From Methylophilaceae bacterium 11 (lineage in GTDB: Bacteria > Pseudomonadota > Gammaproteobacteria > Burkholderiales > Methylophilaceae), in the NCBI GenBank assembly GCA_000525025.1, contig JCKJ01000001.1:434001-498000 (forward strand): a DNA stretch of 64,000 nt, written 5' to 3'. The position numbers were made by a program, and so were the translations under genes. Below, piece by piece: positions 4,731-40,924 of this stretch (position 1 is the stretch's first letter; each line of letters opens with the position of its first letter). Below the pieces are notes generated by a model. It ran no database searches and was not told the DNA's origin. It saw nothing but the letters and a program-made list of their open reading frames with translations.

Positions 4731-6896
4731 TTAAATCTTTTCCAATTTAGCGTATTCCATCATCAACGTCTTTAAGCCTTGGTGGCCAAAATTGATTTTG
4801 ATGGCTAGGTCACTGGCATTGCCTTCGTAGCTCACCACTACGCCATCTCCAAATTTTGCATGCCGCACACTTTGCCCGATTTTAAACGGGTACTGCTGGC
4901 TTGCGGAAGGCTTGGCCTGGTAGTTACCACCAGTCGCATAAGCTTTAGGCGTAGGCTTGCTGTTTAGCCGTTTGAGCAGTTCGTCCGGGATCTCATCCAA
5001 AAAGCGTGATGGAATGCCATAGCGCACTTGGCCGTGCAACATGCGGCTTTGCGCATGGCTTAAATACAGGCGTTGACGCGCGCGCGTCACCGCCACATAC
5101 ATCAAGCGGCGTTCTTCTTCTACGCCGCTGTTTTCATAAGTACTTTGTTCGTGTGGAAATAAGCCTTCTTCTACGCCGCTAATAAATACCGCTTTAAATT
5201 CCAAGCCTTTGGCGGCATGCACGGTCATCAACTGTAGCGCTTCACGCCCAACGTCTGCTTGATGTTCGCCGGCTTCTAAACTGGCATGGTTTAAAAACTG
5301 TGTAAGTAAATCGGCATCTTCCTCTACGTTGTTGTGGTTACCAAAGTCTTGGTTGCTAAAGGCTACCGCCGCGGTGACCAACTCTTCCAAGTTGGCAATG
5401 CGGTCTTCCCCTTCTTTATCAGCTTGGTAATGCGTTTTTAAGCCAGACATTGTAGTGGCTAACTCTGCTAGCTCTGGCAACTTAATGCCATAGGCTTGAT
5501 TCACCATCTCACGGATTAGCCCAACAAAACCATCGATACCTTTACCGCCTAATGTGCCATTGCCCACCTTATTGATAGCGGCTTGCCATAGGCTGCAGTT
5601 TTGCTGACGCGCTGCTTCTTGCAGTTGCTCTAAACTACGTGCGCCAATACCACGCGCAGGAAAATTGATGATACGCAACAGTGCCGTATCGTCATTAGCG
5701 TTGGCAATCAAGCGCATATAGGCCAATGCATGTTTGATCTCTGCACGTTCAAAAAAGCGTAAACCGCCATATACGCGATACGGGATATTGGCTGAAAATA
5801 GGGTGTGTTCCAAGATGCGCGATTGTGCATTGCTGCGGTAGAGTAAGGCCATATCCCCTAAGCTGGTGCCTTCGTTCTGCAGCATATTCACTTCATCCAC
5901 AATAAACTGCGCTTCGTCCGTATCGTTATAGGCATCATACACACGCACAGGCTCACCTTTACCGGCGGTGGTCCATAAATTTTTGCCTAAGCGATGTTTG
6001 TTGTGCGAGATAATCGCATTCGCAGCATCCAAAATATTGCTGTGCGAGCGATAGTTCTCCTCCAGCTTCACAATATTTTCTACATGAAAATCAGATTCAA
6101 AATCACGCATGTTGCCCACACGTGCACCGCGGAAACCATAAATAGATTGGTCGTCATCACCTACTGCAAAAATACAATTGCTGGTGCCGGCCAAGAGTTT
6201 TAACCACAAGTATTGCAGACGATTGGTGTCTTGAAACTCATCCACCAGAATGTAGTGGAAGCGGCTTTGGTAATGCTGGCGAATATGCGCATCGCGCTCC
6301 AGCAGTTCGTAACAACGCAATAGCAATTCGGCAAAATCGGCCACACCTTCGCGGTTGCATTGTTTATCGTATTCCTCGTAGATTTCTCGCAATTTTTGCG
6401 AATGTGCATCGTAAGCATCTACTGCATGTGCGCGTAGACCTTCTTCTTTGCAGCTATTGATATAGCCCTGTACTTGTTTGGGCGGGTATTTCTCATCGTC
6501 CACATTCATCAGCTTCATTAAGCGTTTGATGCTGGATAACTGATCCGCAGTATCTAAAATTTGAAACGTGCTGGGCAAGCCAGCCTCGCGATAATGTGCA
6601 CGCAATAGACGATTACATAAGCCGTGAAAGGTACCAGCCCACATGCCACGCGTGTTGATCGGCAACATAGCGGTTAGGCGCGTCAACATCTCTTTAGCCG
6701 CTTTGTTGGTAAAGGTCACCGCCATCAATCCCATGGGCGATACCTGTCCGGATTGAATCAGCCAAGCAATGCGGGTGGTCAGTACACGCGTTTTTCCACT
6801 GCCTGCCCCAGCTAAAATCAGCGCGGATTGTCGGGGGAGGGTAACGGCTTCCAGTTGTTTATTATTGAGGCCGGATAAGATTGAGTCGGTGTCCAT
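4731..6896 (-). CDS. uvrD: DNA helicase II (UvrD/Rep/PcrA family)
   Basis: This 721-residue superfamily 1A 3'-5' DNA helicase acts in nucleotide excision repair and mismatch repair. The N-terminus MDTDSILSGLNNKQLEAV carries the Q motif, followed by the Walker A LAGAGSGKTR near residue 30. The Walker B VDEFQDTNRLQ lies near residue 218, GDDDQSIYGFRGA follows as motif III, and VHAAKGLEFKAVF is motif V. The C-terminal about 50 residues (GQSVRHAKFGDGVVVSYEG) form the Tudor-like UvrD tail that contacts RNA polymerase in relatives, which favours UvrD over Rep. Length is as expected. The gene is transcribed away from the small-RNA candidate upstream of it. Confidence 0.95.
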   Translation of the reverse strand: MDTDSILSGLNNKQLEAVTLPRQSALILAGAGSGKTRVLTTRIAWLIQSGQVSPMGLMAVTFTNKAAKEMLTRLTAMLPINTRGMWAGTFHGLCNRLLRAHYREAGLPSTFQILDTADQLSSIKRLMKLMNVDDEKYPPKQVQGYINSCKEEGLRAHAVDAYDAHSQKLREIYEEYDKQCNREGVADFAELLLRCYELLERDAHIRQHYQSRFHYILVDEFQDTNRLQYLWLKLLAGTSNCIFAVGDDDQSIYGFRGARVGNMRDFESDFHVENIVKLEENYRSHSNILDAANAIISHNKHRLGKNLWTTAGKGEPVRVYDAYNDTDEAQFIVDEVNMLQNEGTSLGDMALLYRSNAQSRILEHTLFSANIPYRVYGGLRFFERAEIKHALAYMRLIANANDDTALLRIINFPARGIGARSLEQLQEAARQQNCSLWQAAINKVGNGTLGGKGIDGFVGLIREMVNQAYGIKLPELAELATTMSGLKTHYQADKEGEDRIANLEELVTAAVAFSNQDFGNHNNVEEDADLLTQFLNHASLEAGEHQADVGREALQLMTVHAAKGLEFKAVFISGVEEGLFPHEQSTYENSGVEEERRLMYVAVTRARQRLYLSHAQSRMLHGQVRYGIPSRFLDEIPDELLKRLNSKPTPKAYATGGNYQAKPSASQQYPFKIGQSVRHAKFGDGVVVSYEGNASDLAIKINFGHQGLKTLMMEYAKLEKI

Positions 6897-6973
6897 AGCG
6901 GTATTATCGCATGGCTACCGGTTTCAATTAACTGTGATAATAAAAATAGAAATTTAGACTAAAAAAGTTGGAA

Positions 6974-7117
6974 CTAAGCCCGAAAAGGCTTAGTCATAGA
7001 GTACATGATGTGCAAGTTGACGCTTGCCATCTTTCCGCTTCTTTCCTCCCTGAGCGGAAGCCTTAGACGATGAGGCTATTTGCCCCGATTTAATCCCCTT
7101 AATCGGGGCTTTTTTTG
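6974..7117 (+). ncRNA. Candidate structured small RNA with anti-Shine-Dalgarno loop
   Basis: The 325-base gap between uvrD and ung holds no plausible protein gene but has a chain of stems read on the plus strand. Stem 1 is CTAAGCC/GGCTTAG (6974-6993, loop CGAAAA). Stem 2 is GCAAG/CTTGC (7012-7027). Stem 3 is TTCCGCT/AGCGGAA (7033-7059) with a 13-base pyrimidine-rich loop containing TTTCCTCCCT. Stem 4 is AGCCTTA/TGAGGCT (7059-7077, sharing one base with stem 3). The last is a strong terminator, GCCCCGATT/AATCGGGGC (7082-7109), followed by seven or more Ts. Only the plus strand has the T-tract, and neither flanking gene is transcribed on plus, so the terminator implies an independent transcript. 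CCTCCC is complementary to Shine-Dalgarno sequences. The 5' end and promoter are not fixed. I do not recognise a named RNA family; it does not match SRP RNA, tmRNA or RNase P RNA. Confidence 0.6.
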
Positions 7118-7221
7118 TGCGGCGTTTATTTGTAAATAAATCTTAATTAAGTGTAAACAAGTTGTAATGCCATGACAAGCGGTTTATGTGCGTGCGCTCA
7201 TGACACACACCACTTACAACG

Positions 7222-7923
7222 TTAAAGCTGCCAATCAATAGGCGCTTGTCCATGCTCAATTAAATATTGATTAATGCTAGAAAACTGGTGGTTGCCAAAA
7301 AAACCACGATGCGCAGAGAGTGGCGATGGATGCACAGATTTAAGCACCAAATGGCGTTTTGCATCAATTACATCGCCTTTTTTCTGTGCGTAACTGCCCC
7401 ACAATACAAACACCAAACCTTCCCGATGCTTGTTCAATGCAGCAATCGCTGCATCGGTAAACTGCTCCCAGCCTTTGTTTTGGTGTGCACCTGCTTTGGC
7501 TTGTTCTACTGTCAGCGTGGCATTGAGCAACAACACACCTTGATCTGCCCACGGCGTTAAGTCACCATTTCTGCTCATCTTAATATTTAAATCGGCTGAG
7601 ATTTCTTTGAAAATGTTGAGGAGGGAAGGGGGTAAATCCATGCCTTGCGGCACCGAGAAGCTTAATCCATGCGCTTGTGGCTGTCCTTTATTATCTTGCC
7701 CGTGGTAGGGGTCTTGCCCAATAATTACCACGCGCACTTGATCAAACGGCGTGTGATTAAAAGCATTAAAAATCAGCGGTCCTGGCGGGTAGATAATTTT
7801 GCCGGCCGCCTTTTCTTGCTGAAGAAAAGCACGCAAGGCTTCCATATAAGGTTGATGGAGCTCGTCACCAATGACGGTTTGCCATGAAGGGGGGAGCTGT
7901 CCGGATTTTTGGAGTGCTGTCAA
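7222..7923 (-). CDS. ung: Uracil-DNA glycosylase, family 1
   Basis: This 233-residue enzyme removes uracil from DNA and starts base excision repair. The family 1 signatures are intact: the water-activating GQDPYHGQ near residue 70 with the catalytic Asp, and the DNA-intercalating [10 protein letters not shown] near residue 196 with the catalytic His. The central [11 protein letters not shown] strand is also typical. The start at 7923 gives a normal N-terminus ([14 protein letters not shown]). Downstream lie the IR and sRNA region, with no terminator of its own orientation that I can see. A second, decayed UDG-like gene of a different family lies at 32239. Confidence 0.96.
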
Positions 7924-20156: not shown

Positions 20157-20471
20157 ATGTTTAACAATGTGTTTCTTCGTATCGTACTTCTTTGCGGTTT
20201 ACTACTTGCATTCACCGCCCATGCGGCAATCGATGGGTTTGTAAACGCGTCAAAGCCACGCCCGGCAAGTATTCAAGTGTCTAGCAGTGACAATGTCGGC
20301 AATGATTATTATCAAGTAGCGCTTGCTGTAAAAATGATGGATGTGCGTACTGACGCCAATGCTTATTTGGCTACAGCCAGTATGCAAGACCAAGGCTTAC
20401 CTAGACCAGTTTGGGCGCTTGCTTGTGGCTTGGCTTTTCTGAGTGTAATGAGACGACGTTTGAGTAGATAG
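20157..20471 (+). CDS. Small exported protein with PEP-CTERM-like tail
   Basis: This 104-residue protein has a signal peptide (residues 1-23, ending AFTAHA) and a short low-complexity mature part. Its C-terminus, LPRPVWALACGLAFL followed by SVMRRRLSR, has the three-part layout of exosortase sorting signals: a short Pro motif, a hydrophobic helix and a basic cluster. The canonical PEP triplet is replaced by PRP. Methylophilaceae often encode exosortase systems elsewhere. A strong GGGAGGAG ribosome-binding site sits 4 bases before the ATG. The gene has its own terminator and so is monocistronic. Function unknown; the sorting-signal reading is my inference. Confidence 0.6.
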   Translation: MFNNVFLRIVLLCGLLLAFTAHAAIDGFVNASKPRPASIQVSSSDNVGNDYYQVALAVKMMDVRTDANAYLATASMQDQGLPRPVWALACGLAFLSVMRRRLSR

Positions 20472-40810: not shown

Positions 40811-40837
40811 CGAAGTTGCACATTATATACCTCCTGC

Positions 40838-40924
40838 CGGGATGGCGGAATTGGTAGACGCACGGGACTCAAAATCCCGCGTTGGAAACAACGTGCCGGT
40901 TCGATTCCGGCTCCCGGCACCAGC
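40838..40924 (+). tRNA. tRNA-Leu (anticodon CAA)
   Basis: The acceptor arm GCCGGGA pairs with TCCCGGC, followed by A and an encoded CCA. The anticodon loop is CTCAAAA with anticodon CAA (decoding UUG). The long variable arm (about 13-15 bases, GTTGGAAACAACG region) is typical of class II leucine tRNAs, and GGTTCGATTCC gives the T loop. Length of 87 bases fits. It is the only tRNA seen in this window. Confidence 0.96.

Follow-up and report, generated by a model that had tools for sequence, protein, structure and literature searches.

The gap between uvrD and ung in Methylophilaceae bacterium 11 very probably encodes a real small RNA (sRNA) of a described family, listed in Rfam as RF02837, 'Burkholderia RNA 7 (anti-hemB)'. 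From conserved sequence features and from analogy with studied sRNAs, we consider it probable that this anti-hemB member is transcribed by RpoE under envelope stress and that its C-rich loop would silence G-rich ribosome-binding sites. We analysed a stretch of 64,000 nucleotides (contig JCKJ01000001.1, positions 434,001 to 498,000), here called the window, whose coordinates are used throughout. Folding of the gap predicted a row of plus-strand hairpins, the last of which is a strong intrinsic terminator, and the features of the locus are as follows.

4731 to 6896, minus strand: uvrD (Pfam UvrD)
6970 to 6976, plus strand: sigma-E type -35 element GGAACTA (promoter pattern and profile scoring)
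6972 to 6995, minus strand: probable intrinsic terminator of ung, inside the promoter spacer (terminator-like; compensated stem in loci L001, L021, L026 and L027)
6994 to 6998, plus strand: sigma-E type -10 element TCATA, after a spacer of 17 (promoter pattern and profile scoring)
7005 to 7117, plus strand: inferred sRNA of about 113 nt, 5' end within 3 nt either way (-10 element, 105-nt length of ncS04, terminator, fold z of -6.6)
7007 to 7031, plus strand: 5' hairpin GATGTGCAAG...CTTGCCATC (predicted fold)
7032 to 7116, plus strand: RF02837 anti-hemB match over the whole model, 1-81 (56.9 bits, gathering score 49.5, E = 1.3e-10)
7034 to 7058, plus strand: C-rich hairpin with its loop at 7041-7051 (predicted fold and per-locus stem comparison)
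7045 to 7052, plus strand: putative anti-Shine-Dalgarno seed CCTCCCTG (CCTCCC in 78 of 81 model-found loci)
7059 to 7077, plus strand: third hairpin GCCTTAG/GAGGC (predicted fold)
7082 to 7116, plus strand: intrinsic terminator, whose loop at 7091-7100, TAATCCCCTT, has a second C-run (predicted fold)
7222 to 7923, minus strand: ung (Pfam UDG)

The terminator stem, GCCCCGATT/AATCGGGGC at 7082-7109, is followed by T7 on the plus strand. Folding agreed with a first-pass annotation of this DNA on the stems of the gap, on the plus-strand terminator with its T-run and on the letters of the C-rich loop. The loop sequence stood as given, but the minimum-energy fold closes the loop to 11 bases rather than 13. 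Four stems had been assigned to the RNA; the later ones fall within the inferred RNA, but the first (6972-6995) probably lies outside it, since it occupies the promoter spacer and looks like a terminator when read on the minus strand. This palindrome is kept with letters changed on both sides (AAGCC/GGCTT against AAGGC/GCCTT) in L001, L021, L026 and L027, and between 6967 and 6998 the probable minus-strand terminator of ung shares its bases with the plus-strand sigma-E type promoter. We placed the RNA start near 7005 because of the promoter spacing at the Burkholderia ambifaria locus (L053) and the 105-nt length of ncS04. The region 6960-7125 folded well on the plus strand (z = -4.8) and also on the minus strand (z = -3.3), with 0 of 200 shuffles as good in either case, and the inferred RNA at 7005-7117 gave z = -6.6, again with 0 of 200 shuffles as good. 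Hairpins that served only to terminate transcription in both directions, or that came from the 3' side of ung or uvrD, would suit two minus-strand neighbours and a minus-strand terminator at 6972-6995. This explanation is very improbable, because the family match and the loop both lie on the plus strand, from which neither of the two genes is read. Elsewhere in the window, a tRNA gene lies at 40836-40919 (Rfam RF00005).

The first-pass annotation had suggested that the family might be undescribed. This is contradicted by the Rfam scan, in which the full 81-position RF02837 model matched the window above its gathering score (56.9 against 49.5 bits), and we dropped the novel-family reading. No other place in the 2.79-Mb genome matches RF02837 at E ≤ 0.001. 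Covariance searches across this genome and 60 relatives found the family in 53 of the 61 (50 above the gathering score). In the loci compared, the stems covary and the loop is nearly constant. The original proposal of a separate sRNA, transcribed from the plus strand and bearing an anti-Shine-Dalgarno loop, is well backed by family membership, by conservation of the loop and stems and by a conserved promoter. A class-wide scan gave a match at E ≤ 0.001 in 168 of 369 genomes, a figure that exaggerates the spread of the family because 3 of 14 control genomes match too; by stricter measures, the gathering score is reached in 21 of the 369 and E ≤ 1e-6 in about 94, counted by hand. Several copies of the sRNA lie close together in some places (G231, G323 and G339, with up to four matches each, and G322, G210, L234, L239 and L088). 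One locus also has a c-di-GMP-I riboswitch (L244:2037-2121, 77.9 bits) some 450 bases from the sRNA, on the same strand.

The family has been met experimentally in Burkholderia cenocepacia. There, according to the available part of PMC5688073, its member ncS04 is a 105-nt RNA detected by Northern blot, with a 3' end mapped by RACE, that was unchanged in all seven qPCR conditions, and the accessible text of PMC4603805 has it running opposite to both flanking genes and copurifying with Hfq. The one of these two papers that concerns biofilms describes CU-rich unpaired stretches in seven of its candidates, and its available text does not say whether ncS04 is among them. A review gives hemB as the predicted target and RybB as a homologue of Bc7 (available section of PMC6321483). 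Bc7 is probably the same RNA as ncS04/RF02837, to judge by the name used in Rfam and by copurification with Hfq. The available parts of these three sources (PMC5688073, PMC4603805 and PMC6321483) give no function for ncS04 or Bc7, and a literature search that covered few subscription journals found no published sigma-E link or function for RF02837.

The loop was then compared locus by locus. CCTCCC fell within the opening 45 bases of the match in 78 of the 81 loci found by the covariance model, a count made free of any anchor, with L007 (CCTCCT), L023 (ACTCCC) and L252 (ACCCCCT) as exceptions. It sat in a hairpin loop in 76 of 78 anchorable loci, in a test that was anchored on the loop and excluded L184, L248 and L252; the covariance model itself favours the loop, and these figures for its constancy are partly biased. 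Around it the stem occurs in many compensated variants, such as CCCGCT/AGCGGG, CCACGCT/AGCGTGG, TCCTGCT/AGCAGGA and GCATG/CATGC. We used these per-locus stems in place of an RNAalifold consensus because RNAalifold, run on a MAFFT alignment of 53 loci picked by hand from 118, misaligned the first stem and placed pairs within the loop. The alignment is also no evidence of loop constancy, since all of its rows were anchored on CTCCCT and the loop was constant by construction in 26 of the 53 (those from L031-L150). A second C-run in the terminator loop is present in 111 of 188 loci and reads TCCCCTT in the window (C-run at 7095-7098). Comamonadaceae-type members (L043, L048, L074, L040, L092 and similar) have a GTGTGACAGCAAAA stretch of the third hairpin in common, as well as TTAAAT or TAACAT-like -10 elements.

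Upstream of many cores we saw GGAACTT, 15-17 bases and TCWNA, which corresponds to the sigma-E consensus and was then tested. A promoter score of at least 10 of 11 was reached by 84 of 149 loci (L001-L150, with L081 unscored) against 0.7% of shuffles that keep dinucleotides. In a larger set, scored with a restricted distance and G or T as first base, 119 of 193 loci reached it against 0.37% of shuffles that keep base composition only, leaving 74 without a good sigma-E type site; 5 of 198 loci with short upstream sequence (including L081) had no score, besides L184, L248 and L252. Model-found loci alone, which are independent of the loop pattern, had the site in 62 of 77 cases. The site is kept beside hemB, polA and uvrD alike, and it goes with the second C-run of the terminator loop (92 of 116 loci with the site against 19 of 72 without, uncorrected for kinship). 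By group, counted on 52 loci that we assigned by record title out of 80 with titles, it was found in 8 of 9 Paraburkholderia/Caballeronia/Pandoraea loci, 16 of 20 other beta- or gammaproteobacterial loci, 0 of 21 of Comamonadaceae type and 0 of 2 from Burkholderia sensu stricto. These upstream sequences point to a sigma-E type promoter at a fixed distance in most lineages, a putative feature that we did not find noted for RF02837 in the literature searched.

A profile built from 66 sRNA promoters outside Methylophilaceae, again judged against composition-only shuffles, was then applied to rpoE upstream regions from the genome itself and 30 loci of relatives. Of these 31, 21 beat all 40 shuffles and 27 were reached by at most two; the four that failed were L199, L206, L207 and L228. 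In 14 of 16 congeners the site lies 196-198 bases before the matched domain, and the genome's own rpoE has TGAACTA-N17-TCTCT at 201 bases (13.1 bits, reached by 0 of 40 shuffles). The window promoter, GGAACTA-N17-TCATA, is a weak instance (10.0 bits, reached by 1 of 40 shuffles). Among Methylophilaceae sRNA upstream regions, 9 of 39 were reached by one or more shuffles, with L134, L181 and L185 as clear failures. Searched across the genome, the sigma-E pattern gave 6 matches against 10 for the reversed control, which is uninformative by itself. The genome encodes one full RpoE (TIGR02939, 301 bits), besides five weak sigma matches, and from their order the three frames after rpoE are probably rseA, rseB and rseC. 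Together, the promoter sequences suggest that RpoE, the sigma factor of the envelope-stress response, turns the sRNA on. An RF02837 sRNA with housekeeping sigma-70 transcription and a metabolic role, in which the sigma-E-like site is a remnant, would account for the weakness of the window site, for the unregulated ncS04 in qPCR and for sigma-70-like -10 elements seen by eye upstream in Burkholderia and Comamonadaceae. We regard it as unlikely, because most lineages, and most loci within the genus of the window, retain the sigma-E site, and a sigma-70 scan found no plus-strand promoter at the sRNA start.

The gene neighbourhood bears on the name of the family. By tblastn, the flanks of 198 loci contained engB with hemB (70), hemB (26), engB with polA (17), engB (14), polA (7) or none of these (64), and 39 of the last 64 have uvrD, like the window. 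There, polA is at 1-1479, about 5.5 kb off, and the sRNA adjoins uvrD and ung instead. The B. ambifaria locus L053 has hemB (ALAD) and an engB-like GTPase as neighbours. The name anti-hemB suggests cis-antisense control of hemB, a gene that flanks 96 of the 198 loci by tblastn and 92 by clustering and that is the predicted target of Bc7 (available section of PMC6321483). However, in 80 of the 92 loci hemB stops upstream of where the RNA should start, at least 28 bases before CCTCCC (median -99), and hemB is no neighbour in the window, which leaves cis-antisense control extremely improbable. The window copy resembles RF02837/ncS04 (probably Bc7) in its full-length match above the gathering score, loop, terminator and similar length. 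It differs in lying at uvrD-ung, whereas the Burkholderia copy lies at hemB-engB, in having a sigma-E type promoter where that of Burkholderia is sigma-70-like, and in the second C-run of its terminator loop, which the B. ambifaria locus lacks.

Two experimentally studied sRNAs share features with the family. ErsA of Pseudomonas (RF01719) is dependent on sigma-22 and represses algC by pairing with its ribosome-binding site, with Hfq, according to the available text. It has in common with the window sRNA a C-rich loop and a sigma-22/sigma-E promoter, and it also has a polA neighbourhood; in contrast, its C-rich loop is in the terminator hairpin, it is without the CCTCCCTG hairpin, and RF01719 gave no match at E ≤ 1 in the window at 6900-7230. 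In a Pseudomonas-like genome (G222, with RsmY above cut-off), ErsA (115.7 bits) lies downstream of polA with TGAACTT-N16-TCATA upstream, and RF02837 is absent among the matches listed. The sX13 RNA of Xanthomonas (RF02232) always lies downstream of polA and represses via C-rich loops mRNAs with G-rich targets near the start codon, independently of Hfq (available part of PMC3771888); it differs from the window sRNA in its CCCC loops, its Hfq independence and its degenerate promoter. Three clear sX13 loci have polA alongside and only a degenerate promoter. In these loci (L331-L333), a common promoter-like stretch, GAACC ... GTTATA, stands in place of the sigma-E site.

Searches with both models gave a mixed picture. 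In an all-Rfam scan of 24 distinct anti-hemB loci, RF01719 matched two weakly (L242, 30.3 bits; L232, 30.0 bits) and RF02232 matched two below gathering (L254 and L256). RF02232 matched in 15 genomes, in 0 of 14 control genomes and not in the genome of the window. Separate searches placed RF02232 and RF02837 at one place in three genomes (G231, G142 and G294), and among the matches listed their places differ in four (G075, G081, G124 and G183). The RF02837 matches listed include none of the three genomes in which sX13 scored above cut-off (G072, G225 and G334), nor two others with an RF02232 match (G292 and G426). The common polA/engB/hemB surroundings and the double matches make a link of RF02837 to ErsA and sX13 possible on sequence grounds. 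In the broadest form of this proposal, the three would be one ancient family at a polA-engB(-hemB) locus, a sigma-E-driven repressor with C-rich loops. It would serve most Betaproteobacteria, and many Gammaproteobacteria outside the enteric group, as their envelope-stress sRNA, and would have been rewired to a housekeeping promoter in Burkholderia and Comamonadaceae. We think this could as easily be wrong as right. The clear sX13 genomes and G222 are without a listed RF02837 match and the places differ in four genomes, which lowers the odds of this proposal and, slightly, our confidence in the main reading.

Considering the C-rich loops of sX13 and the action of ErsA on algC, we propose by analogy that the window sRNA would block G-rich ribosome-binding sites. 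RpoE would transcribe the RNA of about 113 nt during envelope stress, the exposed CCUCCCUG loop would pair with such sites and block initiation, and in many members the second C-run in the terminator loop would help pairing; Hfq would probably take part. Other RNAs offer parallels. The Betaproteobacteria toxic sRNAs (RF02278), double-hairpin RNAs, likewise set CU-rich loops opposite ribosome-binding sites, but they are shorter and multi-copy according to the available text, and in the window RF02278 scored 21.4 bits against a gathering score of 50. Anti-Shine-Dalgarno regions are also found in the Neisseria NmsR siblings, which are paired and under stringent response, and in the alphaproteobacterial cuckoo sRNAs; homology to either was judged by the Rfam scan alone.

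The first-pass annotation put forward the genes at 20157 and 27839 as possible targets. GGGAGG does precede their ATGs (plus and minus strand, respectively), but the two sites are no evidence of targeting, because across the genome GGGAGG-N3-11-ATG is no commoner than its reversed control (27 matches each) and the proposal fares no better than chance. Ten of the 27 start frames of at least 60 aa in the fetched DNA, and some of these ten were judged to be internal starts. The frame at 20157-20471, with GGGAGG as its Shine-Dalgarno sequence, encodes a short protein that has a signal-like start and belongs to no Pfam family. The pattern CAGGGAGG-N3-9-ATG occurred in 58 of 61 genomes, far above the reversed control, an excess that we set aside since any Shine-Dalgarno-like pattern would show the same; 19 of 30 such loci from relatives give frames under 90 aa.

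The exact loop complement, CAGGGAGG, is found 7 times in the genome, once within the sRNA itself. Of the six sites elsewhere, one (G000:C1:1130146) lies 7 bases upstream of the start codon, ATG, of an autotransporter of 1213 aa with its beta-domain (PF03797, E = 8.6e-39). Each of the other five is followed within 22 bases by short frames or by frames that may be internal, one starting with GTG (at least 161 aa) and one with TTG (98 aa). This autotransporter, with CAGGGAGG as its Shine-Dalgarno sequence, is the best single candidate target. Sigma-E sRNAs such as MicA and RybB have targets in the outer membrane, and an autotransporter would suit an sRNA of this kind. We take surface proteins to be the most likely target class. 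Similar-looking ABC-2 permease genes at L274 and L329 both have GGGAGG-type Shine-Dalgarno sequences, a possible conserved target.

The sX13 study raised the question of whether related sRNAs of like action are encoded at other polA loci (available part of PMC3771888), and the sequences compared here suggest that many such loci do encode them. The family was already described; what regulates it and how it acts are new proposals of this analysis. They would give an Rfam family that extends from Burkholderia to Methylophilaceae a regulator (RpoE) and an active site (the CCUCCCUG loop) that can both be tested, and the family may be linked to ErsA and sX13, two sRNAs already studied by experiment.
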